Below the pieces are notes generated by a model, which saw nothing but the letters and a program-made list of their open reading frames with translations, was not told where the DNA came from and searched no databases. From Rhodospirillales bacterium (GTDB lineage: Bacteria > Pseudomonadota > Alphaproteobacteria > ATCC43930 > CGMCC-115725): a stretch of DNA of 64,000 nucleotides. The stretch lies in the NCBI GenBank assembly GCA_947473305.1, contig CANJCB010000015.1, positions 1-64,000 of the forward strand, given 5' to 3'. This document shows positions 44,597 through 64,000 of this stretch, one piece after another. Within the stretch, counting starts at the first letter, position 1; each line of letters starts with the position of its first letter. Made by a program: the position numbers and the translations under genes.

Positions 44597-44609
44597 ACCG
44601 GGAGTCCCG

Positions 44610-45647: not shown

Positions 45648-45672
45648 GGCTCATCCCTCCGATTGTCTCAGG

Positions 45673-47706: not shown

Positions 47707-47712
47707 CGGTGC

Positions 47713-47892: not shown

Positions 47893-47960
47893 GAGGTCCC
47901 TGCCATCCCAAAGGTATGTGCCGCGGGCGCATATTATGGAACGCAACCTCGGCGAGCAAT

Positions 47961-47987
47961 ATTAACCTTAATAAAATTAACCTTAAT
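47961..47987. repeat. tandem ATTAACCTTAAT repeat
   Basis: Two exact copies of ATTAACCTTAAT (47961-47972 and 47976-47987) lie 15 bases apart in a strongly AT-rich patch within GC-rich DNA. Each is itself an inverted repeat (ATTAA-CC-TTAAT). They overlap the end of small protein B and lie about 70 bases upstream of small protein A. This is a plausible operator pair or promoter-proximal element. The spacing does not give the TTAA-N7-TTAA of CtrA sites. Confidence 0.55.
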
Positions 47988-48156
47988 TTCCGGGCGCGTC
48001 CACAGCCGGTTTCGAGATGGCCTTCGCCTCGCAGGCGGACGCGAGCCGGAACAGCTCCTCCTTGACCATTTCCATGGCAGTCAGCGAGGCCAGCCGCCGA
48101 TATTCCTGCGCCCGGGCCGTCCAAGAACCGTGATGCTCACCGGATACGCCGCTCAT
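47983..48156 (-). CDS. small alphaproteobacterial-type helical protein B
   Basis: A 57-residue helical protein: SWTARAQEYRRLASLTAMEM then KEELFRLASACEAKAI. It has the same helix pattern as the neighbouring 59-residue protein. The start at 48156 begins at the MSGVSGEHHG segment; the ribosome site is weak, and a TTG start further upstream (48219) is possible. Function unknown. Confidence 0.5.
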   Translation of the reverse strand: MSGVSGEHHGSWTARAQEYRRLASLTAMEMVKEELFRLASACEAKAISKPAVDAPGN

Positions 48157-48361
48157 TCTGAGACCAAGACCATCCACCTGGGCGATCAGGCTAAGCGGCG
48201 GGAGTCCGGCTCGCAACACAATTTAACCGTGAATCGAAAGGCTTGGCCTTTCTTGTGCCCCTGGCAGCTGTTGGGATATCGTCACTGAATTCAATCGCCT
48301 TCATGGGGATTTGCATTCTGGTTTCGAAGCCATACTTTCTTATTCTGCCCCGGTTGCCCGG

Positions 48362-49962: not shown

Positions 49963-49982
49963 CTTTCGAACAGGGGAAATAA

Positions 49983-50960
49983 ATGCGCAGGACGATCAGA
50001 GCTGCCGCTTTGGCTATCGGCTTCGGAGGCCTTGTCGCAATTCAGCCGAGTTTGGCGGCGGACAAGGTCAATTTCGTGCTCGACTGGAGTTGGGTGGCCT
50101 ATCATTCGGCCTTCCTGCTGGCGCAGGAGCGCGGCTATTACAAGGACGTCGATATCGATCTCAACCTTGAACAGGGCCGCGGTTCCGCTTCCTCCGCTCT
50201 TTTGGTGGGACAAGGCAGTTTCGACATCGCCCATATCAATATCACCAACGCCGCCCAGGCAGGTGCTAAGGGCATGCCGATCCGGACAGTCGCACTCTAT
50301 CAGCACGGCACGTCTTCGGCCTTCATCGGCATCAAGGGCAAGGTCAAGCTGGACGGACCACAATCCCTGATCGGCCTCAAGATCGGCAGCACGCCCGGCG
50401 GCTCGGATGGTTTCGCCATGGCGATCTTCCGCGAAGCCAACAAAATCCCCGAAAACAAGCTCGACATCGTGGCGCTCGACGCCAACGTGAAGACCGTGGC
50501 GCTGCTCAATGGACAGGTCGACGTGGTGAGCGGCGACAGTCATGCCTATAACGCCATTGTCCGCGGGGCGGGTAAGGAGCCGGAAATGCTCCAATTCTCG
50601 AAATATGGCGTCCCCCTGCTGGGCTTCGGCTTTGCCGCCAACGACAAATACTTTCAAAGCCATAAGGATGTGGTGAAGCGCTTCCTCGCAGCATCGAAGA
50701 AAGGTTTCGCCGAGGCGCAGAAGGATCCAGACGGCGCCTGCGATTTAATCCAGAAGGACGGCAAGCTGCCTGGCAGCCATATGCAATGCGTCCTCTATAT
50801 GACAGGACTCTTCGATCTTTCGACCCCTGCTACGGATGCGAATTGGGGCCGGATGACTGAGAAGGAATGGATCGATCTCCTGGCGACCCTGAAATCCGTT
50901 GGCCAGATCGAGAAAGAACGGCCGGTCGCCGATTACTACTCCAACGATGCGGTGCCCTGA
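49983..50960 (+). CDS. ABC transporter substrate-binding protein (NMT1/THI5 type)
   Basis: A 325-residue binding protein with a signal peptide (RRTIRAAALAIGFGGLVAIQPSLAA). The mature start KVNFVLDWSWVAYHSAFLLA with GYYKDVDIDLN is the NMT1/THI5-like pattern of pyrimidine-precursor and related receptors. SSALLVGQGSFDIAHI follows. It completes the importer encoded just upstream. Its stop overlaps the racemase-like start (TGATG), linking uptake with the two enzymes downstream. Confidence 0.9.
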   Translation: MRRTIRAAALAIGFGGLVAIQPSLAADKVNFVLDWSWVAYHSAFLLAQERGYYKDVDIDLNLEQGRGSASSALLVGQGSFDIAHINITNAAQAGAKGMPIRTVALYQHGTSSAFIGIKGKVKLDGPQSLIGLKIGSTPGGSDGFAMAIFREANKIPENKLDIVALDANVKTVALLNGQVDVVSGDSHAYNAIVRGAGKEPEMLQFSKYGVPLLGFGFAANDKYFQSHKDVVKRFLAASKKGFAEAQKDPDGACDLIQKDGKLPGSHMQCVLYMTGLFDLSTPATDANWGRMTEKEWIDLLATLKSVGQIEKERPVADYYSNDAVP

Positions 50961-51796
50961 TGCGCATCTGGCACCAGGGGCTGGTCGTCATGGACGATGT
51001 GCTCGACTACCGCACCGCCCTCGAAAAGCATATCAAGAACGCGGTCCGACCGGGAACCGAGGTCGTGGTCCATGGCCTCATACCCGGTACCTATACCCGG
51101 GATTATCCTATCGGGGACCTGCAGCACGGCTCTTTCTCTTATATCCACCACACTCAGACCCTTGCCGCGGCAGTTGCGGCGCAGCAGCAGGGTTTCGACG
51201 CCTATGCCATGGGGTTCCTCTCCAGCGGTCTGCTCCAGGAAGCCCGCAGCCTCGTCGAGATCCCCGTGGTCTGCTATGGTGAGGCGGCCTGCCACTTCGC
51301 CTCCTTCTATGGCCAGCGCTTCGGCATGATCCGCTTCGCGCCTGAACTCATCCGCCGGACCGAGGACATCGTCAGGGGCATGGGCTTCGAGAAGAATTTC
51401 GCGGGCGTCGCCCCGGCGGGCTTCACCTATCAGGACATCTTCGGGAAATTCGAGAACGCGGGCGCCACCATCGACCGCTTCAAAGAGACGGTGCGCCGTT
51501 TCGTCAAGGAAACGGGCGCCGACGTCATCATACCCGGCGAGATGCCGATGAATGTCTTCCTGGCCAGCAATGGAGTGAACCGGGTGGACGACGTGCCGAT
51601 CGTCGACGGCATGGCGGTAACGCTTCTCCTGGCCGAAATGATGGTCGACATGCGAGAGCGGCTCGGCCTTTTCCACAGCCGGCACGGTCAGGCCAATATG
51701 GAACCGCCGCAGAAGCGGCTCCGGCAGATCGTCGAGTTCTACGGCATGGAGAAAATCTGGCAGGCGATGGGCGTTGACCCGTCGGCAATGACCTGA
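50960..51796 (+). CDS. Asp/Glu-racemase-superfamily protein (hydantoin racemase-like), catalytic Cys not seen
   Basis: A 278-residue protein that looks like the Asp/Glu/hydantoin racemase and maleate isomerase superfamily: YIHHTQTLAAAVAAQQQGFD, SLVEIPVVCYGEAACHFA and a second lobe with ETGADVIIPGEMPM. The two reactive Cys of racemases are normally in an x-C-x-[DS]-P-G segment and a G-C-x-x-M segment. Here they read AMGFLSSG (about 83-90) and PGEMPM (about 192-197), without Cys. Cys105 and Cys111 remain. So it may be a non-racemising member. It is translationally coupled to the binding protein. Confidence 0.72.
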   Translation: MRIWHQGLVVMDDVLDYRTALEKHIKNAVRPGTEVVVHGLIPGTYTRDYPIGDLQHGSFSYIHHTQTLAAAVAAQQQGFDAYAMGFLSSGLLQEARSLVEIPVVCYGEAACHFASFYGQRFGMIRFAPELIRRTEDIVRGMGFEKNFAGVAPAGFTYQDIFGKFENAGATIDRFKETVRRFVKETGADVIIPGEMPMNVFLASNGVNRVDDVPIVDGMAVTLLLAEMMVDMRERLGLFHSRHGQANMEPPQKRLRQIVEFYGMEKIWQAMGVDPSAMT

Positions 51797-51838
51797 ATAC
51801 AGTTTACCGGCAATAATTTGTTCAAGGGGAGGCTGGCC

Positions 51839-52927
51839 ATGGGTTTTGCGAAAGTCATTTCAGCCGACTCCCATGTGATGGAGCCTCGCGACCTCTGGTT
51901 CAATGCGCTCGCCAAGCGTTACGGCGAGCATGCCCCGCAGCTTCGCAACGAACATCTCGGCAAGCCCGGCACCTTCTTCTATACGGGCGCCCAGGTCATC
52001 AAGGTCACGGAATCCGACCGGGACGCGCAGAAGATCGGCCTCCAGGCGGCTGGCTACGATCCCGCCGTCCGGCTCGACTTCCAGAACCGCGCGGGCGTCC
52101 AGGGCGAGGTGCTCTACGCGACCTTGATGCTGCTCATCATGCGCGGCGAGCAGCGGGCGGTGGTGCGGGCCGCCGCGGCGGTCTTCAACGACTGGCTGGC
52201 GGAATTCTGCTCCCACGACAATAAGCGCCTCTTCGGCGTCGGCATGATCCCCATGGACGATCCCGACTGGGCCGAGGCGGAACTTCACCGCATCGCCAAG
52301 AAGGGTCTGCGGGGCGCCATGATCCATCTGTCCCCGCCCGAGGGCTGCGCGCCCTATCACGATCCGCTCTATGACCGTTTCTGGGCGGCGGCGCAGGATC
52401 TCGACCTGCCGATCACGCTTCATATCGTGGCCGGGCGCTTCCCCGATCCCTTGCATTTCCATACGGCGAAGGAACAGGAAGACGCGCCGCGCGTGCTGCT
52501 CTCGATCCTCTTCGAGGTGATGAACGAGCTTGCCAACGAATTCATCTTCGGCGGCATCCTCGACCGCTTCGAGAAGCTGAAATTGGTCTGCAGCGAGTTC
52601 GAGATCTCCTGGATCCCGAACTTCATGTGGCGCTTGGACCAGATGCAGGACGACTTCGACGGGCGGCTTAATCTGCGCCAGCTCAAGATGAAGGCCAGCG
52701 ACTATATGAAAACGCGGATCTGGCACGGGATCATCGACGATCCCCTGGGCGCCGATGCGATCAAGGCCCTCGGCATCGAGCGGGTGATGTGGGGATCCGA
52801 CTTCCCCCATGTCCGCTCGATCGGGCTCGATGCCCACAGCCGGCTCGCCAAACTATTCGATGGCCTGAATCCCGCCGATCAGGCCAAGCTCATCGAGGGG
52901 AACGTTTGCGGCGTCTACAAGATCTGA
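51839..52927 (+). CDS. amidohydrolase-2 family metal-dependent hydrolase/decarboxylase
   Basis: A 362-residue amidohydrolase-2 barrel. It shows KVISADSHVMEPRDLW (about 5-20), ITLHIVAGRF (His about 191), LKLVCSEFEISWIP and the conserved Asp in VMWGSDFPHVRS (about 319). It is different from the similar enzyme at 43358. The ATG at 51839 follows GGGGAGG; a TTG seven codons upstream is less likely. It follows the racemase-like gene and precedes the Liv-type importer by 13 bases. Confidence 0.87.
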   Translation: MGFAKVISADSHVMEPRDLWFNALAKRYGEHAPQLRNEHLGKPGTFFYTGAQVIKVTESDRDAQKIGLQAAGYDPAVRLDFQNRAGVQGEVLYATLMLLIMRGEQRAVVRAAAAVFNDWLAEFCSHDNKRLFGVGMIPMDDPDWAEAELHRIAKKGLRGAMIHLSPPEGCAPYHDPLYDRFWAAAQDLDLPITLHIVAGRFPDPLHFHTAKEQEDAPRVLLSILFEVMNELANEFIFGGILDRFEKLKLVCSEFEISWIPNFMWRLDQMQDDFDGRLNLRQLKMKASDYMKTRIWHGIIDDPLGADAIKALGIERVMWGSDFPHVRSIGLDAHSRLAKLFDGLNPADQAKLIEGNVCGVYKI

Positions 52928-52940
52928 ACAGGGGGTTGGG

Positions 52941-54098
52941 ATGAAGCGGAACAACGGATTGCTTTTCGCCGCGGCGCTGGGCCTCGCGGCACTCGTCACT
53001 CAAGGAGCTCACGCCCAACAGGCCACGGGGGAGCCGGTCAAGCTGCCGTTCCCCTATGTCTTCAGCGGCCCGCTCATCGAATTCGGCGAGCGCGTCTGGA
53101 ACGAAGGCGTCGTGCCCGGCGTCGAGGCCGTCAACAAGAAGGGCGGGATCAAGGGCCGGCCTTTGGAATTCTACAAAGTCGACGTCCGTTTCCCGGAAAC
53201 CGCCGACTGGATCACCGAATTCCGCCGGCTCTGCGCCGACAAGTCGATCCCGGTCATGTTCGGGGTGGGGCCGACGAAGAGCGTGCTGGCGATCTATGAA
53301 GAGACCAAGAACTGCGGCATCCCGGTCTTCGCCCCGAGTTCTACCGGCGCTTGGCCCGAGAAGGACTACGCCGGCTGGTTCTATCGCTATCAGCCCATCG
53401 CGGAAGACGTCTGGCCGATCCTCTTCAAGGAGGCCAAGGAGAAGCATGGCCTCAAGAAGATGGCGATCACCTATACGCTCGACGACGACTACGCCGTCAC
53501 CAACCTCAAGATCGCCCAGAAGGTGCTGAAGGATCTCGGCATCGAGATCGTCACCGAGCAGTCGATCCGCGGCAAGGACACCAACCTGCAATCCCAGGTC
53601 GCCGCCATCCGCAATGCGCGGGCCGACGGCATCCTGCTGCTGCATCAACCGAACGACATGGGGACGATGCTGCTGCAGCTGCGCGAACGCGGCGTCACCA
53701 CCCCGGTCTATGGCGATGCCAATATCGGCGGCGTCGATTTCTGGAAGCTCTCCAACGGCGCCGCCAAGGGAGGCATCGGTTATTCGGTCTATACCGCAAC
53801 CGACCCCCGCCCGATGGTGCAGGACTGGGTGAAGCTCTGGCGCGAGAAGACCAAGCGGCCGAACGACGGGCCTGACGGTTTCGTCACCGTCTATTTCGAC
53901 GCGGTGCAGATCCTGGCGCATGTGCTGAACGATTCGAAGGCCATGACGCGGGAAGAAATCCGCAACGCCTTCAACCGCGTCAAGGATCTCGACACCATCA
54001 GCGGCAAGATCACCTGGACTCAACCGGGCGAAGTTACGCGGTCGAAGCCGATCCTGATCCAGGTCGGCGACAACGGCCTGCTCAACCCCTGGCCCTGA
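52941..54098 (+). CDS. ABC transporter substrate-binding protein, branched-chain amino acid type
   Basis: A 385-residue periplasmic binding protein (family 6, LivJ/LivK/UrtA-like) with a signal peptide (LLFAAALGLAALVTQGAHAQ). Typical segments are FPYVFSGPLIEFGERVWNEG, AVNKKGGIKGRPLEF, MFGVGPTKSVLAIYEETKNC and PVFAPSSTGAWP. It heads a complete five-gene importer (binding protein, two ATPases, two permeases). Such Liv-like systems often carry aromatic acids in soil bacteria, not only amino acids. Confidence 0.92.
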   Translation: MKRNNGLLFAAALGLAALVTQGAHAQQATGEPVKLPFPYVFSGPLIEFGERVWNEGVVPGVEAVNKKGGIKGRPLEFYKVDVRFPETADWITEFRRLCADKSIPVMFGVGPTKSVLAIYEETKNCGIPVFAPSSTGAWPEKDYAGWFYRYQPIAEDVWPILFKEAKEKHGLKKMAITYTLDDDYAVTNLKIAQKVLKDLGIEIVTEQSIRGKDTNLQSQVAAIRNARADGILLLHQPNDMGTMLLQLRERGVTTPVYGDANIGGVDFWKLSNGAAKGGIGYSVYTATDPRPMVQDWVKLWREKTKRPNDGPDGFVTVYFDAVQILAHVLNDSKAMTREEIRNAFNRVKDLDTISGKITWTQPGEVTRSKPILIQVGDNGLLNPWP

Positions 54099-54120
54099 TC
54101 GACCGACCCTGACAGCCACA

Positions 54121-54924
54121 ATGGTAAGCCCGCCGCCTGAGCCAAGCGGCCAGGCGGCGGGGGACTTCCTTGCCGTCGATCGGATTTCTGTCCGCTTCGG
54201 GGGACTGAAGGCGCTCGACGAGGTGAGCTTCGGCCTCATCCAGGGCGAAGTCCTATGCCTTATCGGTCCGAACGGGTCGGGCAAGACCACGCTCTTCAAC
54301 GTCATATCGGGCCTGCTGCGGCCGACCTCTGGCGCTGTCCGCTTCAAGGGCGACGAGATCCAGGGTTTGAAGTCCCATCGGGTCGCCGCCTCGGGCATCG
54401 GCCGCACCTTTCAGAACGCGCGGCTTTTCCCCGGCCTGACGATCTTCGAGAACCTGGTGCTGCCCCAGTTCGTCCGCAGTCCAACCGGTTTTTTCGATGC
54501 CCTGCTGACGACGCCGCGCCAAAGGGCGGAGAGCAAGGTCGTCAAGGAACGCGCCGAGCAGCTTCTCGGTGAGCTCGGCGGGGGGCGGCTTTACGCGCGG
54601 CGCTTCGACTACCCGACAAGTTGTTCCCTGGGTGAACAGCGGATGATCGAACTCATGCGAGTGCTGGCGCTCGATCCGGAACTGGTGCTGATGGACGAAC
54701 CCACCCAAGGGCTCAACCCCACTTGGATCGTCGAGATGCTGGACCTCGTCGAGGATGTCCGAAAGCGAGGCAAGACCATCCTTTTCGTCGAGCACAAGAT
54801 GTCGGTGGTGATGAAGATCTCGGACCGGATCGTCGTGCTCAATAACGGACGCAAGATCTGCGAGGGACCGCCGGATTTCGTCCGCAACGATCCCCAAGTG
54901 CTTCATGCCTATCTCGGTCAGTGA
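54121..54924 (+). CDS. LivG-type ABC transporter ATPase
   Basis: A 267-residue ATPase: Walker A GPNGSGKTTLFNVISG (about 50), SGIGRTFQNARLFPGLTIFENL (Q-loop, about 94-115), Walker B LVLMDEPTQGLNP. The usual LSGGQ signature reads SLGEQRMIELMRVL, an altered form in which the first glycine-rich bases are changed (S-C-S-L-G-E-Q). This may affect turnover. It is followed by the LivF-type ATPase. Confidence 0.9.
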   Translation: MVSPPPEPSGQAAGDFLAVDRISVRFGGLKALDEVSFGLIQGEVLCLIGPNGSGKTTLFNVISGLLRPTSGAVRFKGDEIQGLKSHRVAASGIGRTFQNARLFPGLTIFENLVLPQFVRSPTGFFDALLTTPRQRAESKVVKERAEQLLGELGGGRLYARRFDYPTSCSLGEQRMIELMRVLALDPELVLMDEPTQGLNPTWIVEMLDLVEDVRKRGKTILFVEHKMSVVMKISDRIVVLNNGRKICEGPPDFVRNDPQVLHAYLGQ

Positions 54925-54925
54925 C

Positions 54926-55657
54926 ATGCAACCCATCCTGACCGTGGACCGGATCGAGGTCCGTTATGGCAAGGTCGTCGCGGCCACCGACATCTCACTT
55001 GTGATCGGCAAAGGCGAGATCGTGACCCTGCTCGGCCCCAATGGCGCCGGCAAGACCAGCGTGCTGAAAGCGATCGCCGGCCTCGTGGCGCCGGCCGACG
55101 GCCGCATCGCCTTCGACGATGGCAAGACCGTCCATGAACTCGCCGGCAAGCCCGGCCATGTCCTGGCGAAGCTCGGCATCGCCCATGTCCCCGCACAAAA
55201 CATCGTTCTTCCGCGCATGACGGTCGAGGAGAACCTCGAAGTCGGCGGCCGTTTTCTGATGAGCGATCGGGCAGCGCTTCAGCGATCGGTCCGGAGCCTG
55301 ATGGATCGTTTTCCGATCCTCGCGGAGCGACGCACTCAATATGCCGGCCTGTTGAGCGGTGGCGAACAGCGACAACTCGCCATCGCTAGGGCATTGGTCG
55401 CAAAGCCGCGCCTCATGCTGCTGGACGAACCTTCCATCGGCCTTGCGCCCAAGACCCTGGGCGAAATCTTCGGCCTCTTGAAGCGCATCAATCGCGAGGA
55501 CGGCATCGAGATGCTGCTGGTGGAGCAGAACGTCGTGAAGGCGCTGGAACTCGCCAACCGGGCCTATGTCATGCGGGTGGGCGCCATGGATTTCAGCGGC
55601 CCCTGCGAGGATCTCGCCCGCGACGAGCGGCTCGCCAACGCCTATCTGGGGAGTTAG
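54926..55657 (+). CDS. LivF-type ABC transporter ATPase
   Basis: A 243-residue ATPase: Walker A GPNGAGKTSVLKAIAG, IAHVPAQNIVLPRMTVEENL, signature LLSGGEQRQLAIARAL, Walker B LMLLDEPSIGLAPK. The ATG at 54926 is one base after the LivG stop; an ATG at 54905 overlapping that gene is possible. It partners the LivG-type subunit of the same operon. Confidence 0.9.
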   Translation: MQPILTVDRIEVRYGKVVAATDISLVIGKGEIVTLLGPNGAGKTSVLKAIAGLVAPADGRIAFDDGKTVHELAGKPGHVLAKLGIAHVPAQNIVLPRMTVEENLEVGGRFLMSDRAALQRSVRSLMDRFPILAERRTQYAGLLSGGEQRQLAIARALVAKPRLMLLDEPSIGLAPKTLGEIFGLLKRINREDGIEMLLVEQNVVKALELANRAYVMRVGAMDFSGPCEDLARDERLANAYLGS

Positions 55658-55662
55658 GGGCG

Positions 55663-56550
55663 ATGGCCGAATATCTCTTCGAGCAATTCCTGATCGGCAT
55701 CAGCACCGGCGCGATCTATGCCATCGTCGCCATCGGCTACAATCTCGTCTTCGGCGTCATGAACGTGCTGAACCTCTCCCATGGCGCGGTCATGATGGTG
55801 GGGTCTTTCGGCGTGTTGCTGCTCTTCTATCTCGGCATCGACAATTTCTGGCTGGCGGTGGCCTTCGGCATCGCCCTCGCGCTGGTAACCGGCCTCCTGG
55901 TGGAGCGGATCGCAGTCAGACCCCTCAAGGGCAATTGGTGGAACATCAAGGTCGCGACCCTCGGCGCCGCGATGTTCCTGGAAAACTTCGTGACGCGCCT
56001 GACCGATGGGCGTCCGATGCCCTATCCGCGCCCCTTCAAGCCGGTCTATTACACGATCGTCGGCGATTTCGAGGTGTCCAACGTCCAGCTCTTCCTGATC
56101 GCCTGTTCGCTGGGGCTCATGGTCGCGATGATGCTCTTCCTGCGTCACACGACGCCCGGCAAGGCGATCCGGGTCGTGGCGCAGAACCCGGACCTCGCCC
56201 AATGCGTGGGCGTCAATGTCCAGCAGACCATGGTGCTGGGTTTCGCCCTGAGCGCGGCACTCGCCGGCTGCGCGGGCATCCTCAATGCCGTGACTTTCGG
56301 ATCGACCTATCCCTTTGTCGGGCAGTTCCTGGGGTTGAAGGGCCTCGTCATCCTGATCGTCGCCGGCATCGGCAATGTACGCGGCTGCCTGATCGTGGCG
56401 CTGGTGCTGGGCGTATTGGAAAGCTTCTCCGTGGTGGCCGGCGGGTCGCAGTACCGGGATCTTGTCGCCTATAGCGCGCTGGTGTTGACGCTTCTCGTCA
56501 GGCCCCACGGCCTCTTCGGCGAAGAAGGCCGAACCGGGCGGGAGATCTGA
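55663..56550 (+). CDS. LivH-type permease
   Basis: A 295-residue permease with about eight hydrophobic helices. It begins EQFLIGISTGAIYAIVAIGY and includes GVMNVLNLSHGAVMMVGSF, the LivH start pattern, and VAQNPDLAQCVGVNVQQTM for the ATPase-facing loop. It follows the LivF-type ATPase by five bases and overlaps nothing. It moves substrate through the inner membrane with the LivM-type partner. Confidence 0.92.
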   Translation: MAEYLFEQFLIGISTGAIYAIVAIGYNLVFGVMNVLNLSHGAVMMVGSFGVLLLFYLGIDNFWLAVAFGIALALVTGLLVERIAVRPLKGNWWNIKVATLGAAMFLENFVTRLTDGRPMPYPRPFKPVYYTIVGDFEVSNVQLFLIACSLGLMVAMMLFLRHTTPGKAIRVVAQNPDLAQCVGVNVQQTMVLGFALSAALAGCAGILNAVTFGSTYPFVGQFLGLKGLVILIVAGIGNVRGCLIVALVLGVLESFSVVAGGSQYRDLVAYSALVLTLLVRPHGLFGEEGRTGREI

Positions 56551-56551
56551 C

Positions 56552-57415
56552 GTGGATTGGCTGATGCAAGGGCTCACGGCGCATTTCGGCGGCATCACCT
56601 GGGCCTTCGTCCTCGACCTCTTCACCGATTACGGGCTTTTCCTGGTGTCGGCACTCGGCCTCTATGTGCTGATGTCGGCGGGCCAAGTCTCGCTCGGTCA
56701 TGCGGGAATGGTCGGGATTGCCTCCTATTCGGCGGCCGTCCTAGCGGTGAAGTTCCATGTCCCCTTCTGGCTCAGCCTGCCGCTCACCGGCTGCATCGGC
56801 ATGGTCGCGGGCATGGTCTATTGCTATTTGCTCGGCTGGCGGTTGAGCGGTTTCTATCTTGCCATCGGCACCTTCGCGTTCGGCGAGATGATGATCAACA
56901 TCTGGCTCACCAGCGATTATCTCGGTGGCGCCATCGGTTTCAGCGGCATTCCCCTCCTCGCCCGCTGGCCGGTGCTGCTGATCGTATTGCCGCCGATCTT
57001 CTATGCGCTCTGGCGGATCGAGCATTCGCGGATCGGCCTCGCCTTCCGGGCGATCCGGGATAACGAAACCGTCGCCGGCAGCATGGGGATCAATGTCGCC
57101 CGCACCAAGCTCATGGCCTGGATGATCGGCGGCTTCATCACCGGGCTTGGCGGCTGCCTCCATGCCCATCGCGTGACCGTCATCACCCCGACGGAATTCG
57201 GCATCTATACGTCGGTGACCATGCTCTTAGCGATCTTGATGGGCGGCTTGCGCACTTTCTGGGGCACGGTGCTGGGCGCGGCAGTCATCTATTTTGGCCC
57301 TTGGCTTACGACCACCAGCGAGCCTCGCGACCGGCTCATGTTCTATGCGGCGCTGATCGTCATCCTGATGATCCTCCGCCCGCAAGGATTGCTCGCCTCT
57401 CGCGCGGCACGCTAG
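56552..57415 (+). CDS. LivM-type permease
   Basis: A 287-residue permease with about eight helices: YGLFLVSALGLYVLMSAGQVSLGHAGM (read in two parts, about 29-55), then RAIRDNETVAGSMGINVART, the conserved LivM cytoplasmic loop, and MLLAILMGGLRTFWGTVLGA near the end. The GTG start at 56552 has GGGAGA upstream and lies one base after the LivH stop. It ends the Liv-like operon; the next gene starts after 85 bases. Confidence 0.92.
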   Translation: MDWLMQGLTAHFGGITWAFVLDLFTDYGLFLVSALGLYVLMSAGQVSLGHAGMVGIASYSAAVLAVKFHVPFWLSLPLTGCIGMVAGMVYCYLLGWRLSGFYLAIGTFAFGEMMINIWLTSDYLGGAIGFSGIPLLARWPVLLIVLPPIFYALWRIEHSRIGLAFRAIRDNETVAGSMGINVARTKLMAWMIGGFITGLGGCLHAHRVTVITPTEFGIYTSVTMLLAILMGGLRTFWGTVLGAAVIYFGPWLTTTSEPRDRLMFYAALIVILMILRPQGLLASRAAR

Positions 57416-57424
57416 GCAGCCAGT

Positions 57425-57451
57425 TTGACTCTTGACAGGGATCGTTACTAT
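57425..57451 (+). promoter_or_regulatory. possible promoter ahead of the aromatic/di-iron module
   Basis: TTGACT (57425-57430), 15 bases, TACTAT (57446-57451), in the only sizeable gap between the Liv-type importer and the hydrolase gene at 57501. A second TTGACA lies at 57432. This is a weak match with short spacing; read-through from the Liv operon is equally possible. Confidence 0.28.
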
Positions 57452-57500
57452 GGGGTCACATTTCGAGCAGCTGAGCGACGGCGGCATATAGGAAAGTTCG

Positions 57501-58331
57501 ATGAGGTTTTCCGTCGAAGAAATCATGGGCGCCCGGACCCGTTATCTCATTGGAGGTGAGGGTTCGCCTCTCATACTGGTTCATGGCGTCGGGATGTCGG
57601 CGGATTCCTGGCTGCTGTCGCTTCCCGCTTTGGCCAAGGAATACCGGGTCGCGGCCCCCGATCTTCTCGACAACGGCTTCACAGAATCGGGCCCCTATAA
57701 CGGGGGCCCGCCGCAGCCCTACATCGTCGATCATCTGATCGCCCTGGCCGACCATCTGAAATTCGACCGTTTCACCCTGGTCGGCAGTTCGCTCGGTGCG
57801 ATGATCACGCTCCTGACCTATTTTAAGATCCCCGACCGGATCGACAAGATCGTTCTGGTTGGACCAGGTTCCACCATCTGCCCGCCGCCGGGCTCCAACG
57901 ATCCGCCGGCACTCCAGGGTTCCTACGAGAACGGCAAAAAGGCCATCGAGGACCCAACCTACGAGTCCTGCAAGGCGCGGCTCGGCCGGGTCTTCCACGA
58001 CGCCGCCCGCGTGCCGGACGTGGTGGTCGCCATGCAGATGCTGCTTTATGCGATGCCCGGCGCGATGGAGCAATTCGAGCGTCGGATGGCCGGCTTGCGC
58101 AGCCCGGAAGCCCGCCAATACGAGGTCTTCAGCCGTCTCGGCGAAATCAAGGTTCCGACCCTCGTGCTCACCGGGCGCGAGGATATCCGAGGCAAATTTT
58201 CCGCCATCGCCGAATCGGCAAAACGGCTGCCGAACGGCAAGCTTCTACCCTATGATCGCTGCGGGCATTGGCCCCATATGGAACACCCGGCGAATTTCAG
58301 CCGCGACGTGTTGCACTTTCTGAAGAGCTGA
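57501..58331 (+). CDS. alpha/beta hydrolase (meta-cleavage-product hydrolase-like)
   Basis: A 276-residue alpha/beta-hydrolase. It has the HGVGMSADSW oxyanion segment (about 29-37), nucleophile Ser97 in LVGSSLGAMI, Asp228 in LTGREDIRGKF and His256 in CGHWPHMEHP. This set and length match C-C bond hydrolases of the BphD/XylF group, which split 2-hydroxy-6-oxo-dienoates from extradiol cleavage. An extradiol-type dioxygenase gene follows after 10 bases, which supports the role. Confidence 0.87.
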   Translation: MRFSVEEIMGARTRYLIGGEGSPLILVHGVGMSADSWLLSLPALAKEYRVAAPDLLDNGFTESGPYNGGPPQPYIVDHLIALADHLKFDRFTLVGSSLGAMITLLTYFKIPDRIDKIVLVGPGSTICPPPGSNDPPALQGSYENGKKAIEDPTYESCKARLGRVFHDAARVPDVVVAMQMLLYAMPGAMEQFERRMAGLRSPEARQYEVFSRLGEIKVPTLVLTGREDIRGKFSAIAESAKRLPNGKLLPYDRCGHWPHMEHPANFSRDVLHFLKS

Positions 58332-58341
58332 GAGGATCCCG

Positions 58342-59319
58342 ATGAGCCAGGCCGAAACCCTCGAACGCGCGGCTCAGACCGCGCTCTTCCATCCGCGCCG
58401 CCTCGGGCACGCCAACCTCTATGTGAGCGACTATGAGAAGGCCTTCGACTTCTATCATTCGGTGGTCGGCTTCGAGGAGGTCTATCGCCAGCCCGACAAG
58501 AAGGCGAGCTTCATCAGCAACGGCAACACCTATCACGACTATGGGTTGATGGACGTTCACGGCGACTATCTCGCCAAGGAACCCAAACCCGGCCTCAACC
58601 ATCTCGCCTTCGAGCTCGAGAACGAGGTGGCACTGGTCGAAGGCTATCGCGCAGCGCTCAAGGCGGGCGTGGTCTTCACCTCGACCCAGAACCACGATGT
58701 GGCCCATTCGGCCTATGCCAAGGATCCGGACGGCAATGTGGTCGAATTCTATGCGGATGTCTTCGCCGACTGGCGCACCGCCCGCAGCGGCGTCATTTCC
58801 GGCAAGAAGCCGAAATACGTTCCCGGTGAGACCGACGCGCCCAAGGCCGAGAGCTTCTATCCCGTCAATCCACCGATCCGGAAGGTGGATGCCTCGGTCT
58901 TCCGGGGCCGCACCGTCAGCCACGCCGGTCTCGTCGCGCGGAACTACGAGGAAATGGTCGATTTCTACACCGGCGTCGCCGGCCTGACGCCGGTTGCCGG
59001 AGGGCGCTCCGGTTCCTTCACCCTGCTGCGCGGCAGCTTCGGAACAGGCGATCTCAGCCTTTTCCGCCAAGGGCCGGGCCTCGAAGCCGGCCTTCATCAC
59101 GTGGGCATGGACGCCTGGAGCGAGACTGACCTCGACCGCGCGGTGGCCATGTTGCCGGAGAAGGGCCTGACGCTGGTGCGCGACGTCAGCCATCCTGCCC
59201 GCCGCGCCGTCACGATCAAGGATCCGGACGGCATCGGCCTGCAATTCTACGTCAACCGGCGCTGGGAGCCTTCTGTCATTGCGACGGTCGATGCCGCAAC
59301 CGCCCCTTACCTCCTCTAG
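58342..59319 (+). CDS. two-domain VOC extradiol-dioxygenase-like protein
   Basis: A 325-residue protein of two vicinal-oxygen-chelate domains. Metal ligands in the N-domain are His23 (LGHANL), His87 (LNHLAF) and Glu135 (VVEFYA), a complete 2-His-1-Glu set. In the C-domain the same places are His194 (SHAGL), His252/253 (LHHVG) and Gln301 (GLQFYV), so the Glu is missing. Classical catechol 2,3-dioxygenases use the C-domain, so the active site here may be in the other half. It sits between a C-C hydrolase and a binding protein. Confidence 0.85.
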   Translation: MSQAETLERAAQTALFHPRRLGHANLYVSDYEKAFDFYHSVVGFEEVYRQPDKKASFISNGNTYHDYGLMDVHGDYLAKEPKPGLNHLAFELENEVALVEGYRAALKAGVVFTSTQNHDVAHSAYAKDPDGNVVEFYADVFADWRTARSGVISGKKPKYVPGETDAPKAESFYPVNPPIRKVDASVFRGRTVSHAGLVARNYEEMVDFYTGVAGLTPVAGGRSGSFTLLRGSFGTGDLSLFRQGPGLEAGLHHVGMDAWSETDLDRAVAMLPEKGLTLVRDVSHPARRAVTIKDPDGIGLQFYVNRRWEPSVIATVDAATAPYLL

Positions 59320-59331
59320 GAGACCGCAACC

Positions 59332-60354
59332 GTGAGGCTTTTCGGCGTCGCCCTTTCCGCTGTCCTGCTCGCAGCGAGCACCGTCGCCTGGGCCCAACCC
59401 AAGACGGCGGACGGTCTGCGTATCGTGAAATTCGGCACCGTGGGCGGGACGACCGACGCCGGTCTCGTCATCGCCGACGAGATGGGCTTCTTCAAGGATT
59501 TGGGCATCAAGCTGGAATTGAACCGGATCGGCTCCGGCCCAGCCCTTCTGGCAGCCGTCGTGACCGAGCAGATCGATGGCGGCGGCGTCTCGCTCACCCC
59601 CGGCCTCTTCGCCGCGGCGCAACAGGGCGTGAAGCTCAAGCTCGTGGGCGACAAGCAGAGCTACAGCCCCGGCTTTTCCTCGTCCTGGGTCGTTGCCCGA
59701 CCGGAATATGTGAAGGCGACAGTCAAGGAGAGCTTCGTCGCCCTCAAGGGCAAGAAGATGGCGATCAATTCCAAGGGCACTATCGCCTATATGGCGCTGC
59801 TCGACGCCTTCAAGTTCTATGGCCTCGAGCCCAAGGACATCAATGTGGTGGAACTGGGCCATCGCGACATGATGCCGGGCCTCGCCAGCGGCGCCGTCGA
59901 AAGCGCCTATATGCTGGAACCCTTCATCACCCAGAGCGTGAAAGCCAACATCGGCAAGGAGGTTTCCGACCTGATGGATGTGCGCTCCCCCGGCTCGACC
60001 GCCGTGCCGATCGTCTATGGCGAGAAATTCGCTGCCGACACCAAGTCCGCCAACGCCTTCATGCTGGCCTATATGAAAGGCGTTCGCGCCTATAACGACG
60101 CCTATCGCAAGGACATCGACAAGGAGAAGGTTGTCGGCATGATCGCCCGCTATACGAAGCTCGATCCGGCGCTGATCCGCGACAGCCATCCAACCGCGCT
60201 CGAGCCCAACCAATATGTGAACCAGCCCTATATCGAGGAGGTCGAGAGGTTCTTCATGTCGCTGGGCTCGCTCCGGGCGATCACGCCGGCCAAGGAGATC
60301 GTCGATCCGTCTTTCGCGAATGAGGCGGTCAAGATCCTCGGCGAATATAAGTAG
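59332..60354 (+). CDS. ABC transporter substrate-binding protein (NMT1/SsuA type)
   Basis: A 340-residue binding protein with a signal peptide (LFGVALSAVLLAASTVAWAQ) and an NMT1-like body: IVKFGTVGGTTDAGLVIADE, GFFKDLGIKLELNRIGSG, LAAVVTEQIDGGGVSLTPG. The start is GTG at 59332, 12 bases after the VOC gene, with AGGAG upstream. The ATPase and permease that most likely complete its importer lie 2.7 kb downstream (63031 and 63858), with four redox genes in between. Confidence 0.88.
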   Translation: MRLFGVALSAVLLAASTVAWAQPKTADGLRIVKFGTVGGTTDAGLVIADEMGFFKDLGIKLELNRIGSGPALLAAVVTEQIDGGGVSLTPGLFAAAQQGVKLKLVGDKQSYSPGFSSSWVVARPEYVKATVKESFVALKGKKMAINSKGTIAYMALLDAFKFYGLEPKDINVVELGHRDMMPGLASGAVESAYMLEPFITQSVKANIGKEVSDLMDVRSPGSTAVPIVYGEKFAADTKSANAFMLAYMKGVRAYNDAYRKDIDKEKVVGMIARYTKLDPALIRDSHPTALEPNQYVNQPYIEEVERFFMSLGSLRAITPAKEIVDPSFANEAVKILGEYK

Positions 60355-60369
60355 CGGCGGAGGTCACTC

Positions 60370-61065
60370 ATGGCCCTCACGACAACGGACGTGCTGGAGA
60401 CGATCTCCCGGCTCAACGCCGAAAGCGGCCGGAAGGCCCATCCTCTCTATAGGGCGCTGGAGGACGGCGGGCTGAACCGCGCGCAGCTGCGGTACTTCTG
60501 CCTGCAGAACAGCGTGATCCCACTCTACAACCACAACCTCCACGGCCGGATGTATGTCTCCTGCCCCGATCCTGAGTTCCGCGAGAAACTCGCCGAAGTG
60601 GGATACGAAGAGGCGACCGGCCGGATCTATGCGGATGGAATCCCGCATTACAAACTCTACATCAACCATGCCAAGGCCTTCGGCATCACCCGCGAAGAGC
60701 TTTATTCGGTCGACTACTGCGCCGGTGCCGACACGGTGCTGCTCTTCCTCTCCGACGCCTGCGACCGCTTCATCGAGGGCGTGGCCGCAGTCATGCTGGT
60801 GGGCGAAGCGCAGGGGCCGGGCTCCGATGGCCGCATCGCCCAGACGCTGCAACGCGAGCATCACCTCTCCGACGAAGAAGTCGCCTTCTACGTCGTCCAT
60901 GACAAGGCAGATGAGGACCACGGCGACGTGGGCCGCTTCCTCCTGGAAAAATTCGTGAAGAGCGACGCCGAGCGTCAACTCATGATCGACGTCGCCGCCA
61001 AATCCAACAAGATCCGCCGCCGCATGTACGACGAGGTCTGGTCGAACATGCAAGGCTTGGCTTAG
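60370..61065 (+). CDS. haem-oxygenase-like di-iron oxidase (HDO) family protein, copy A
   Basis: A 231-residue all-helical protein of the PqqC/TenA/CADD-like superfamily. Likely metal ligands are Glu80/81 (YEEATGR), His93 (IPHYKL), Glu146 (LVGEAQ), His177, Asp181 and His184 (VVHDKADEDHGD). The H-x3-D-x2-H pattern matches CADD and other HDO enzymes, which use a di-iron cluster and O2 on amino acids, fatty acids or quinone precursors. A copy of the same length lies at 61982, with an aspartate-dehydrogenase-like gene between. PqqC- or TenA-like cofactor-free roles are less likely because the acidic ligands are kept. Confidence 0.82.
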   Translation: MALTTTDVLETISRLNAESGRKAHPLYRALEDGGLNRAQLRYFCLQNSVIPLYNHNLHGRMYVSCPDPEFREKLAEVGYEEATGRIYADGIPHYKLYINHAKAFGITREELYSVDYCAGADTVLLFLSDACDRFIEGVAAVMLVGEAQGPGSDGRIAQTLQREHHLSDEEVAFYVVHDKADEDHGDVGRFLLEKFVKSDAERQLMIDVAAKSNKIRRRMYDEVWSNMQGLA

Positions 61066-61104
61066 AACTCTTTCCCGGCTCTCGTTACATCAGGATTCAC
61101 CCTC

Positions 61105-61965
61105 ATGTCGTCATCGGTTACCGCATTGCATCCCGCACCCAAAGCTCAAACCGCAAGGCCTATGACCAGGGTCGCCATCGCCGGCCTCGGCGCGATCGGT
61201 GCGGCGCTGGCGCGGAAGCTGGGCGCTGGCGAAATACCGGGGATCGAGTTGGTCGCCGTTTCGGCGCGGGATCACGACAAGGCGCGGGCGACTCTCGGCG
61301 TTTCGCTGTCCAAGCTTCCGATCCTCTCCTTGAGTGAACTTGCCTCGGTGGCGGATGTGGTCGTCGAATGTGCCCCGGCAGCGATCTTCGAGCAGATCGT
61401 CCGGCCGGTGGTGGAAGCTGGCAAGAAGGCGATGGTCCTGAGCGTCGGCGCGCTGCTCTCCCACTACGACCTCGTCGAAGTGGCGCGCGTGAACGGCGGC
61501 CAGATCATCGTGCCGACCGGCGCGCTCCTCGGCCTGGACGCCGTGGGTGCGGCGGCCGAAGGCAAGATCAACAAGATCACCATGGAAAGCCGGAAGCCTC
61601 CCGCGGGTCTGATGGGTGCGCCTCACCTCATCGAGCACAAGATCAACATCGAGGGCCTCAAGGAACCGCTGCGGGTCTTCGAAGGCACCGCGCGAGAAGC
61701 CGCCAAGGGTTTCCCCGCCAATCTCAATGTCGCCGTCGCCCTCTCGCTCGCCGGCATCGGCCCGGACAACACGCGGCTGGAGATCTGGGCCGATCCGACG
61801 ATCACCCGCAACACCCATCGCATCACCATCGACAGCGACAGCGCCCACATCGACATGAAGATCGAGAACATCCCCAGCGAAAACCCCAAAACCGGGCGGA
61901 TCACCGCGCTGAGCGTTATCTCGGCGTTGCGCAAGCTCACCAGCCCGCTTCGCGTCGGCACCTGA
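61105..61965 (+). CDS. L-aspartate dehydrogenase (NadX)-like protein
   Basis: A 286-residue protein of the AspDH (DUF108) family: Rossmann motif VAIAGLGAIGAALA (about 23-36), VVECAP, SVGALLSH, VPTGALLGLDA, and the C-terminal catalytic region WADPTITRNTHRI with His238, then NIPSENPKTG. The family makes iminoaspartate from aspartate (first step to NAD) or runs in reverse. No nadA or nadC is near; instead it lies between two di-iron oxidase-like genes, so it may make or use an amino- or imino-acid in their pathway. An alternative start is 61162. Confidence 0.87.
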   Translation: MSSSVTALHPAPKAQTARPMTRVAIAGLGAIGAALARKLGAGEIPGIELVAVSARDHDKARATLGVSLSKLPILSLSELASVADVVVECAPAAIFEQIVRPVVEAGKKAMVLSVGALLSHYDLVEVARVNGGQIIVPTGALLGLDAVGAAAEGKINKITMESRKPPAGLMGAPHLIEHKINIEGLKEPLRVFEGTAREAAKGFPANLNVAVALSLAGIGPDNTRLEIWADPTITRNTHRITIDSDSAHIDMKIENIPSENPKTGRITALSVISALRKLTSPLRVGT

Positions 61966-61981
61966 GAGCGAGGAAAAGACC

Positions 61982-62677
61982 ATGGCGCTCACCACCTCGG
62001 ACGTGCTGGAAGCCGTCACGGAGATGAACCGCAAGAGCGGCCGCAAGAGCCATCCGCTCTATCAGGCGTTGGAGGCGGGCGATGTCAACCTTGCCCAGAT
62101 GCGTTACCTCTGCAAGCAGATGAGCATCATCCCGCTCTATAACCACAATATGCATGGGCGGATGTATGTGGCCTGTCCCGATCCGGAACTCAGGGAACGC
62201 CTCGCCGAGGTCGCCTATGAAGAGGCCACGGGCCGGATCTATGCGGACGGCATCCCGCATTACAAACTCTACATCCACCACGCCGAAGCCCTTGGCATCA
62301 GCCGAGAGGAACTCTACGCCACCGAATATTGCGCCAGCGCAGAAGGCATGATGCTTTTCCTGTCCGACGCCTGCAGCCGCTTCCTGGAGGGTGTCGCCGC
62401 CGTCTCGCTCGTGGGCGAAGCGCAGGTGCCGGGCCTCGCCAACCGCATCGCCCAGATGCTTCAGCGCAAGTTCGGTCTCGACGACAAGGGCGTCGCCTTT
62501 TTTGTGGTGCATGACAAGGCCGACGAAGATCATGGCGATGCGGGCCGCAGCATGCTCGACCGCTTCGCCAAGACCGAAGAACAGCGCCAACTCGTGATCG
62601 ACGTGGCCCGGAAATCCAACAAGATCCGCCGCGCGATGTTCGACGAGATCTGGACCACCGCCCAAAGTCTCGCTTGA
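61982..62677 (+). CDS. haem-oxygenase-like di-iron oxidase (HDO) family protein, copy B
   Basis: A 231-residue paralogue of the protein at 60370, alignable end to end without gaps, with all candidate ligands at the same places (Glu80/81, His93, Glu146, His177, Asp181, His184). Differences cluster at about 33-48, 114-125 and 148-166, parts that would line the substrate cavity or the subunit contact. The start lies 16 bases after the AspDH-like stop. The two copies could form a heterodimer or catalyse successive oxidations. Confidence 0.82.
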   Translation: MALTTSDVLEAVTEMNRKSGRKSHPLYQALEAGDVNLAQMRYLCKQMSIIPLYNHNMHGRMYVACPDPELRERLAEVAYEEATGRIYADGIPHYKLYIHHAEALGISREELYATEYCASAEGMMLFLSDACSRFLEGVAAVSLVGEAQVPGLANRIAQMLQRKFGLDDKGVAFFVVHDKADEDHGDAGRSMLDRFAKTEEQRQLVIDVARKSNKIRRAMFDEIWTTAQSLA

Positions 62678-62703
62678 GACCAACGACCCGCTAGAGGAAG
62701 ACC

Positions 62704-63006
62704 ATGGCAGAAATCATCCTGAACCTGAACGACATCCCCGATGGCGGGGCAAAGATCGTCGAGGCGGATCCCCGGCAGAAAATCGCCGTCTTCCGGGTCG
62801 GCGACAGATGTGCCGCGATCCTCAACCGCTGTCCCCATGCCGGGGGCTCGCTCGGCGAGGGTCCCTTCGACGGAACGACAGTCAAGTGCCCGCTGCACGC
62901 CTTCCGGGTGGACGTCTGGAAAGGCGTCGGCAATGCCGGCAAGCCCGTAAAGAAGTATGCGGTGCAGGTCGAGGGCGACAAGGTCTCGATCACCGTTCCC
63001 GAATAA
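62704..63006 (+). CDS. Rieske-type [2Fe-2S] ferredoxin
   Basis: A 100-residue soluble Rieske protein: cluster ligands Cys43-x-His45 (RCPHAGG) and Cys62-x2-His65 (KCPLHAF), with 16 residues between. It resembles the ferredoxin components of aromatic dioxygenases (BphF/CarAc type). In this position it could pass electrons to the two HDO proteins or serve the ring-hydroxylating oxygenases at 15-17 kb and 35-36 kb, which lack their own. No ferredoxin reductase gene is in the window. Confidence 0.9.
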   Translation: MAEIILNLNDIPDGGAKIVEADPRQKIAVFRVGDRCAAILNRCPHAGGSLGEGPFDGTTVKCPLHAFRVDVWKGVGNAGKPVKKYAVQVEGDKVSITVPE

Positions 63007-63030
63007 GACGGCCAGGGCGGGAGGCGGGAG

Positions 63031-63861
63031 GTGGCCGATACCGTGACCGACGCCCTGCGCCCCTTCGCCCTCGACCTCACCAATATTCGCAAAGTCTTTT
63101 TCGCGCGCCAGCAGGCGGTAGAGGCCATTTCCAATGTCTCGCTCCGCATCCAGGAGGGCGAAGTGGTCGCGGTGCTTGGACCGTCCGGCTGCGGCAAGAG
63201 CACCTTGCTGCGCATCCTCGCGGGCCTCGACACGGATTTCACGGGCACTCTCGACTGGGGCCATGTGGACGGCTCGACGGACAAGGAGCGCTTGCGCAGC
63301 GCGACCGTCTTCCAGTCCGATTCGACCTTTCCCTGGCTCGATGCGCGGAAGAACGTGCTGATGGGTCTTTCAGGCTTGACGCTCGACCGAAAGACCGCGG
63401 CGGCGCGGGCCGACACCTATCTCAACCTCGTCGGCCTCGGCGCCTTCCAAAAATCCTATCCCCACGAGCTTTCAGGTGGGATGCGGCAGCGCGTGGCCAT
63501 CGCCCGCGCGCTTGCCACCGAGCCGCTGCTTCTCTTGATGGACGAGCCCTTGGCGGCGCTCGACAGCCAGACCCGGCTCGTCATGCAGCAGGAATTGCTG
63601 CGAATCTGGGCCAAGACCCGCTCGACCGTCGTCTATATCACCCACGACATCGGCGAGGCGCTGACGCTCGCCGACCGGATCGTCGTAATGACCGCGCGGC
63701 CTGGCCGTATCAAGGCGATCGAGACAGTGCCCTTCGGGGCGGACCGCAACGTGATCGCCCTGCGGGGCGAACCCGAATTCGGGCGGCTTGAGGTCGCTCT
63801 TTGGCAACTCCTTGCCGATGAAGTCGGCCAGACCCTGCAACAGCAGGAACTCGCGTCATGA
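63031..63861 (+). CDS. ABC transporter ATPase (nitrate/sulfonate/taurine type)
   Basis: A 276-residue ATPase: Walker A GPSGCGKSTLLRILAGL (about 50), FQSDSTFPWLDARKNVLMGL (Q-loop), signature ELSGGMRQRVAIARAL (about 148), Walker B LLLMDEPLAALD. The start is GTG at 63031, preceded by GGGAGG. Its stop overlaps the next permease start (ATGA). It most likely serves the binding protein at 59332. Confidence 0.9.
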   Translation: MADTVTDALRPFALDLTNIRKVFFARQQAVEAISNVSLRIQEGEVVAVLGPSGCGKSTLLRILAGLDTDFTGTLDWGHVDGSTDKERLRSATVFQSDSTFPWLDARKNVLMGLSGLTLDRKTAAARADTYLNLVGLGAFQKSYPHELSGGMRQRVAIARALATEPLLLLMDEPLAALDSQTRLVMQQELLRIWAKTRSTVVYITHDIGEALTLADRIVVMTARPGRIKAIETVPFGADRNVIALRGEPEFGRLEVALWQLLADEVGQTLQQQELAS

Positions 63862-64000
63862 CCGAAGCGGTGGTCGCCGATCTTGGCACATTGCGCGATG
63901 CCGATCGTCAGCGCCGCCGGAAGACGAAGCAGCTCCAATTCGTTCTAGGGATCGGCTTCCCGATCTGCCTGCTGGTAGTCTGGGAAATCCTGACCCGGAC
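63858..64000 (+). CDS. ABC transporter permease, N-terminal part (cut by window end)
   Basis: An open frame begins at ATG 63858, overlapping the ATPase stop, and runs off the right edge after 47 codons. The translation starts MTEAVVADLGTLRDADRQ and goes on with a basic stretch (RRRKTK), then the hydrophobic helix FVLGIGFPICLLVVWEIL, as in permeases of the SsuC/TauC group. Only the first helix is visible. Confidence 0.75.
   Translation, partial: MTEAVVADLGTLRDADRQRRRKTKQLQFVLGIGFPICLLVVWEILTR

Follow-up and report, generated by a model that had tools for sequence, protein, structure and literature searches.

A candidate import-and-degradation operon with two heme-oxygenase-like oxidases and a Rieske ferredoxin in a Rhodospirillales bacterium

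We analysed a window of 64,000 nucleotides from a Rhodospirillales bacterium (assembly GCA_947473305.1, contig CANJCB010000015.1; G000:C15:1-64000 in our numbering of genomes and contigs, with G000 comprising 4.70 Mb in 105 contigs). Near its end, two heme-oxygenase-like dimetal oxidases (HDO A and HDO B), an aspartate-dehydrogenase-like protein (AspDH), and a Rieske ferredoxin are encoded among ring-cleavage-type and importer genes. We read this locus, with a probability of about 0.45, as an operon for the import and degradation of a small ring compound (probably an aromatic acid, with or without nitrogen), in which HDO oxygenases prepare the ring. It is quite likely that the locus is a catabolic ring-cleavage operon, and the ferredoxin probably serves an HDO. 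The role of the HDO as the oxygenase preparing the ring is put forward tentatively, and a 2-amino or 2-imino diacid as the substrate of AspDH is rather doubtful; ring hydroxylation, the identity of the substrate, and the role of AspDH are what we infer from the evidence below.

Gene organization

Nine genes from the list of open reading frames (ORFs) lie on the forward strand in the order hydrolase, two-domain VOC protein (VOC325), binding protein, HDO A, AspDH, HDO B, Rieske ferredoxin, ATPase, and permease, with gaps of 10, 12, 15, 39, 16, 26, and 24 bp from the hydrolase through the ATPase. The ATPase and permease genes overlap by 4 bp. The permease begins at 63858 and continues past the window end, where a D-2-hydroxyacid dehydrogenase gene (L005:11686-12621) overlaps it by 4 bp, so that the run extends beyond the window. 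The first-pass annotation had described this order on one strand with short gaps, and the ORFs and Pfam matches confirm it (gaps of 10-39 bp); the gene set is not an artefact. Upstream of the hydrolase gene, at a distance of 85 bp, is the end of a LivFGHM importer cluster (54121-57415), ahead of which LivK and an amidohydrolase are encoded. Since it lies so close upstream, the run has at least two importers, LivFGHM and that of the NMT1 type.

54121-54924, + strand: LivG, possibly co-transcribed with the rest
54905-55657, + strand: LivF, possibly co-transcribed with the rest
55663-56550, + strand: LivH, possibly co-transcribed with the rest
56552-57415, + strand: LivM, possibly co-transcribed with the rest
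57501..58331, + strand: alpha/beta hydrolase of the meta-cleavage-product-hydrolase type (Pfam, PDB match, triad S97/D228/H256)
58342..59319, + strand: VOC325, two-domain VOC protein (Pfam, catechol-2,3-dioxygenase-like model)
59332..60354, + strand: NMT1/SsuA-type binding protein (Pfam NMT1_2, 70.3 bits)
60370..61065, + strand: HDO A (Pfam; E80, H93, E146, H177, D181, H184)
61105..61965, + strand: aspartate-dehydrogenase family protein (Pfam, PRK13302; with 61162 as an alternative start codon, 267 aa)
61982..62677, + strand: HDO B (Pfam, ligands, predicted structure)
62704..63006, + strand: Rieske [2Fe-2S] ferredoxin (Pfam, PDB relatives)
63031..63861, + strand: ABC importer ATPase (Pfam)
63858..64000, cut by the window end, complete at L005:10859-11689, + strand: ABC importer permease (labelled from similarity to permeases of the set)

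Between positions 3400 and 13000 of L005, promoter-like sites number 3 (1.9 in shuffled sequences) and terminator-like sites 7 (6.2 in shuffles). Counts so near the shuffle level fit a single operon without proving it. An Rfam scan of window positions 44000-64000 gave no match reaching the gathering score. Because gene calling in G+C-rich loci is prone to antisense errors, key neighbours were rechecked by tblastn. The Rieske oxygenases, AKR and SDR proteins, most RidA proteins, a CMD protein on contig C59, and parts of the importers were read from sequence, unconfirmed by Pfam or NCBIfam.

Elsewhere in the window, two Rieske-oxygenase-like stretches and one FAH-like stretch have matches whose first bases are at about 16548, 21460, and 35688.

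HDO A and HDO B

The two HDOs share 70% identity, and with Pfam Haem_oxygenas_2 (cut-off 28.9) HDO A scores 53.3 and HDO B 69.9 bits. Our alignment holds 38 of the 57 HDO ORFs collected, the farthest rows being 19-21% identical to HDO B; the 19 omitted ORFs are truncated or belong to far subfamilies, and 9 of them do not have the H-x3-[DE]-x2-H pattern. The invariant columns are E80, H93, G105, E146, H177, D181, and H184. With G105 set aside, three histidines and three carboxylates remain, matching the 3H/3C ligand set given for dimetal HDOs in a review of the family (PMC13108848; this and the other papers cited are drawn on for the available part of their text). By sequence alignment, the predicted dimetal ligands are complete in both proteins, in keeping with their earlier description as two HDOs. 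E81, adjacent to E80, is the residue aligned with CADD E81.

An AlphaFold model of HDO B, made with 9 sequences, has a predicted local distance difference test (pLDDT) score of 85.0. Its top structural match is CADD (1rcw; Z 25.0, root-mean-square deviation (rmsd) 2.0, 211 residues aligned, 21% identical), and CADD, FlcD, HrmI, UndA, BesC, and PolF are all among the structural matches listed. The model was built for HDO B, and HDO A is assigned the same fold by its identity to HDO B.

Two known functions were considered and rejected. Plain PqqC does not fit, with HDO B scoring 24.3 bits on TIGR02111 (cut-off 240) and HDO A not listed. CADD and NePabS are self-sacrificing p-aminobenzoate (pABA) synthases; CADD sacrifices Tyr27 and has Lys152 as amine donor (PMC11965152). 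Theirs is the closest solved fold to that of HDO B, with a similar ligand set, and the counterpart of Tyr27 is a tyrosine in both HDO A and HDO B. In contrast, Lys152 corresponds to I156 in our reading of the alignment, and the TIGR04305 scores of 50.6 and 70.1 bits are below the cut-off of 200, which argues against CADD-type pABA synthesis. Bacterial multicomponent monooxygenases of the T4MO type have a ferritin-like hydroxylase (PMC13108848), whereas the predicted fold of HDO B is heme-oxygenase-like, and the two have in common only the principle of a Rieske donor. Matches to TENA_THI-4 (29.0 and 31.1 bits for HDO A and HDO B) exceed the cut-off of 22 and are lower than those to Haem_oxygenas_2.

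Tandem triples of PF14518 genes occur at L105 (G157:C5) and L113 (G255:C43), with ORFs that do not have the H-x3-[DE]-x2-H pattern. On contig C8 of the window's own genome (L115:7983-10634), genes encode an HDO, a hydrolase-like protein, a small protein, and a 229-aa protein that looks HDO-like by eye and has no Pfam match.

HDO genes beside ring-cleavage and importer genes

VOC325 genes lie within 5 kb of an HDO gene in 14 of 33 cases (1.34 expected), and genes for the cluster-type hydrolase in 9 of 35 (1.49 expected); in the window's own genome the counts are 4 of 5 and 3 of 4. Seen from 55 HDO genes, the same distance takes in the cluster-type hydrolase 23 times, an ABC ATPase 16 times, and VOC325 15 times, some of these loci overlapping. 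When G000, G157, G300, and G779 alone are counted, the genes near an HDO are 9 of 23 for VOC325, 6 of 21 for the hydrolase, and 4 of 21 for the ferredoxin. The Poisson values include the window's locus, assume uniform positions, and count related genomes, and a second count gave 13 rather than 14 VOC325 genes near an HDO, a weak HDO (G157:C21) being under its score limit. Because catabolic genes cluster generally and there was no control family, we take these enrichments as an association with degradation operons and not as a fixed reaction order.

Two further loci of the window's own genome have HDO genes in similar company. On C19 (L041:8378-11019), a LigB-family protein, an HDO, and a meta-cleavage-type hydrolase are encoded in a row with gaps of 30 and 2 bp, and on C21 a gap of 4 bp separates an HDO gene from one belonging to the HpaH/DmpE hydratase family (scores of 112.9 and 101.6 bits, neither reaching its equivalog cut-off). 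The position of redox genes amid importer genes, described earlier for the window, has a partial parallel: in two aquatic genomes, two HDO genes directly precede an ATPase and a permease gene (G255:C84 and G157:C34), as HDO B and its ferredoxin do in the window, but the importer proteins of these loci show only distant similarity, the ATPases being 44-45% identical to the window's. The Liv proteins are 56-63% identical to those of G157:C6, where the Liv genes are flanked on both sides by hydrolase and VOC325 genes without an HDO.

Such company also bears on whether these genes might instead make a natural product or cofactor, with the importer bringing in a precursor. The review gives biosynthetic roles to the dozen or so characterized HDOs (PMC13108848, available part). 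On the other hand, domains of nonribosomal peptide synthetases, polyketide synthases, ATP-grasp ligases, and carrier proteins are absent from the ten genes from 57501 through the hydroxyacid dehydrogenase, which include ring-cleavage-type enzymes in a run with two importers. Up to 23 PF14518 matches occur per genome, and the hydrolase, ATPase, and VOC325 are frequent near HDO genes. We consider a biosynthetic role improbable.

HDO genes beside Rieske ferredoxin genes

HDO and ferredoxin genes are same-strand neighbours in the window and at L033, L104, L112, and L146 (gaps of 26, 22, 68, 60, and 49 bp, respectively), and also at L110. Six of 28 ferredoxin matches, these coming from six genomes, lie within 1 kb of an HDO gene, where 0.22 would be expected; the pairs are in five genomes. 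L110, L112, and L146 look orthologous, a single case shared by three congeneric genomes, which reduces the six pairs to about four cases. In the HDO tree the four rows labelled for a ferredoxin are not grouped (4 changes, shuffled mean 3.9): the window and L033 rows are close neighbours, and the other two are far off. The window and L033 pairs may share one origin. Among outside relatives of HDO A and HDO B with a Rieske ferredoxin, the nearest is at L033 in G779; its metagenome-assembled genome bears the label Bordetella parapertussis, which looks doubtful.

Alternatively, the ferredoxin could supply electrons generally to Rieske oxygenases encoded at other places in the genome and lie beside HDO B only incidentally. 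Its nearest relatives in the PDB, the toluene and biphenyl dioxygenase ferredoxins, serve Rieske dioxygenases, and the window's own genome has Rieske-oxygenase-like genes, one of them on C59 beside an HDO and VOC325. Moreover, 22 of the 28 ferredoxin matches are not beside an HDO, among them those at G255:C81, G025:C30, G157:C100, and C22 of the window's own genome, and of the five ferredoxins nearest the window's only that of L033 adjoins one. Against this stand the six same-strand pairs, whose HDO rows come from widely separated parts of the tree. Searches with 16 collected Rieske oxygenases found no homologue from approximately 25 kb before the window ferredoxin to 9 kb after it, and in the window the closest Rieske-oxygenase-like stretch is approximately 27 kb away. 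We regard an incidental arrangement as rather unlikely. The dedicated electron donor of the first-pass annotation is thus upheld insofar as this kind of ferredoxin recurs beside HDOs, and weakened by the 22 ferredoxins elsewhere.

The three ferredoxins nearest the window's (G157:C100, G255:C81, and G025:C30; L130-L132) are 70-73% identical to it and have no HDO nearby; their genes adjoin a gene for a transporter-like protein of approximately 460 aa, cut at the contig end in L132.

Other enzymes of the run

The hydrolase matches Pfam Abhydrolase_1 (83.1 bits), and its best PDB match is 2-hydroxy-6-oxo-7-methylocta-2,4-dienoate hydrolase, meta-cleavage-product hydrolases being nearest. The Ser-Asp-His triad S97, D228, and H256 is invariant in 12 rows. 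Scores with the equivalog models HsaD (81.6 bits, cut-off 400) and BphD (66.9 bits, cut-off 462.15) are below the cut-offs.

VOC325 matches Pfam Glyoxalase (87.3 bits) and falls below the cut-off of the HpaD model (60.3 bits, cut-off 321.4). Its predicted structure (pLDDT 76.2, with two stretches below 50) has the catechol 2,3-dioxygenase fold, matching LapB (3hpv; Z 25.2, rmsd 3.2, 261 residues aligned) and XylE (1mpy; Z 24.8). The hydrolase match and the VOC325 fold, together with the LigB and hydratase neighbours described above, bear out the link to ring cleavage that had first been offered as a possibility.

AspDH matches Pfam Asp_DH_C (106.5 bits) and scores 403.5 bits with PRK13302 (cut-off 253). 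The residues of its RNTH motif, R235, N236, T237, and H238, are invariant in 6 rows, and the histidine is presumably catalytic; the assignment of a substrate is a prediction from sequence. The ferredoxin scores 40.9 bits with Pfam Rieske. An amino- or imino-acid step, as proposed by the first-pass annotation, is a guess. RidA-type proteins are encoded near HDO genes at L033 (by Pfam) and L042 (by our label), and with AspDH these hint at nitrogen-bearing intermediates, a suggestion only.

Distribution and the paralogous locus on C59

At an E-value limit of 1e-20, HDO A has relatives in 7 of the 385 genomes from the class, in 1 of 39 from the family, and in 1 of 398 from the phylum, and HDO B has them in 1 of 43 genomes from the order; these sets overlap, and the window's own genome is part of every count. 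Besides that genome, relatives are carried by G157, G255, and G025 of one genus, by G210, G300, and G378 of another, and by G779. At E 0.001, PF14518 matches number 9 in the window's own genome, 23 in G157, 15 in G255, 6 in G025, 3 in G210, 4 in G300, and 2 in G779, one match in G157 and one in G025 being under the Pfam cut-off. HDO A had no match among plasmids and HDO B none among phages, and no viral contig with A3 was confirmed. A peptide-pattern scan of the genome contigs with two narrow patterns gave 3 loci.

A second run of related genes in the window's own genome, on C59, contains an AspDH relic, a hydrolase (65% identical to the window's), and an HDO (98% identical to HDO B). Encoded on the other strand are a protein labelled CMD by eye (no NCBIfam match) and a binding protein, and beyond them a Rieske-oxygenase-like protein and then a VOC325 protein (84% identical). 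The relic (L045:12497-12702) lies directly upstream of the hydrolase gene and is frameshifted, the C-terminal part alone remaining. A comparison of HDO B with the C59 HDO gives 63 synonymous and 8 nonsynonymous differences. Their dN/dS of 0.028, against 0.256 for HDO A and HDO B, indicates that HDO B is strongly constrained at both places and that HDO A is more diverged; the values for VOC325 and the hydrolase are 0.132 and 0.155. Since C59 keeps an HDO of the B type beside a broken AspDH, so that AspDH has been lost from one of the two loci, AspDH and HDO A seem not to be obligatory.

The heterodimer of two HDOs, suggested earlier, was rejected as an obligate general rule. The B type is the sole HDO on C59, and single HDOs occur with a ferredoxin elsewhere, which makes such a pairing unlikely in general.

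Proposed function

In the import-and-degrade reading, the compound would enter by the NMT1- or Liv-type ABC importer. HDO B would bind two metals, activate O2, and oxidize the compound to a diol or aminophenol, by hydroxylating the ring or removing a substituent oxidatively, before the ring is cleaved or at about that stage. HDO A may be its diverged partner, working on a different substrate or at a second step. Single electrons would reach the HDO from an unlinked reductase by way of the Rieske ferredoxin, just as T4moC serves the unrelated diiron enzyme T4moH. VOC325 would open the ring and the hydrolase would then cut the product, while AspDH and the hydroxyacid dehydrogenase would process amino- or imino-acid and oxo-acid pieces.

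Several observations, to which the distribution of the ferredoxins set out above belongs, weigh against this scheme. Characterized two-domain extradiol enzymes hold their iron in the C-terminal module by a 2-His-1-carboxylate triad. The C-terminal module of VOC325 has no invariant His or Glu in 14 rows. Its conserved residues are in the N-terminal module (H23 and H87 invariant, E135 in 13 of 14 rows), which makes its chemistry less certain than its fold. Among the genome sets searched, the exact order HDO-AspDH-HDO-Rieske occurs in the window only; since it was found nowhere else, the four genes are not a conserved unit, and the proposal of the first-pass annotation that they form one pathway is borne out only in part, and not as a conserved one. 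Seven AspDH genes in 7 genomes exceed the family cut-off, and only the window's has an HDO nearby, apart from the broken relic on C59. C59 itself lacks HDO A, an intact AspDH, and an adjoining ferredoxin, and those of C15 could act in trans. The binding protein and permease have best identities of only 23% and 31% among other HDO loci. The expected neighbour counts are too low a bar, as catabolic genes cluster anyway. The available part of the review names no HDO that hydroxylates a ring (PMC13108848).

The co-occurrence of HDOs with other oxygenases bears on the same point. Among the 27 of 33 VOC325 places examined, 9 have an HDO only, 4 an HDO and a Rieske oxygenase, 6 a Rieske oxygenase only, and 8 neither, one of the latter having an FAD monooxygenase. 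The HDO as a strict replacement of the Rieske oxygenase was rejected (Fisher P 0.69), a further point against our scheme; since the two co-occur as often as not, the HDO need not be the ring hydroxylase. The HDOs could instead work once the ring is open, or on a side chain, by N-oxygenation, C-C cleavage, or desaturation of an intermediate resembling an amino or fatty acid, with the ring prepared otherwise and AspDH taking an amino-acid product. AspDH and the RidA-type proteins would fit the nitrogen-containing intermediates of such a route, and at the 4 mixed places a ring hydroxylase may already be present. However, neither the collected Rieske oxygenases nor the one FAD monooxygenase queried has a homologue in the part of the window within approximately 25 kb of the operon or in the 8 kb past the window, other oxygenase families not having been searched and genes that we labelled as 2-oxoglutarate-type oxygenases lying downstream. 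We consider action on a side chain or opened ring a serious possibility, at somewhat less than even odds.

Comparison with known systems

In toluene 4-monooxygenase, the Rieske ferredoxin T4moC donates electrons to the diiron T4moH (PMC4200526), and we propose the same principle here, a Rieske-type protein feeding a diiron oxygenase that acts on an aromatic compound. T4moH, however, is multisubunit and has an effector, whereas an HDO is one small protein of the heme-oxygenase fold, and among the genes of the run we noted none resembling an effector. In mangotoxin biosynthesis, the HDO MboA is likewise encoded together with a dedicated redox partner, MboB (PMC13185094). Unlike the arrangement described here, with its Rieske ferredoxin, importer, and ring-cleavage-type genes, that system is biosynthetic, and MboB is a reductase with a flavin and an Fe2S2 cluster.

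2-Aminomuconate deaminase belongs to the RidA family. The amn pathway for meta cleavage of 2-aminophenol has this deaminase and resembles our scheme in cleaving a ring with nitrogen-bearing intermediates, RidA-type proteins being found here near some HDOs. In a comparison by description, the available parts of the amn papers do not name an HDO, a Rieske ferredoxin, or an AspDH (PMC6742747, PMC3790839).

Implications

In the open-access literature we found no description, for this enzyme superfamily, of the setting in such operons or of its probable electron donor, and no paper on this gene set. The HDO family is known mainly from biosynthesis; here its members occur in operons of import and ring-cleavage-type genes, several of them adjoining a Rieske ferredoxin. 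The pair of ferredoxin and HDO is directly testable, consisting of two small proteins. It would be an unlikely but possible extension of these observations that single-subunit HDOs preparing rings, with as many as 23 PF14518 matches in a single aquatic alphaproteobacterial genome, are a further independent family of oxygenases of aromatic catabolism fed by Rieske ferredoxins.

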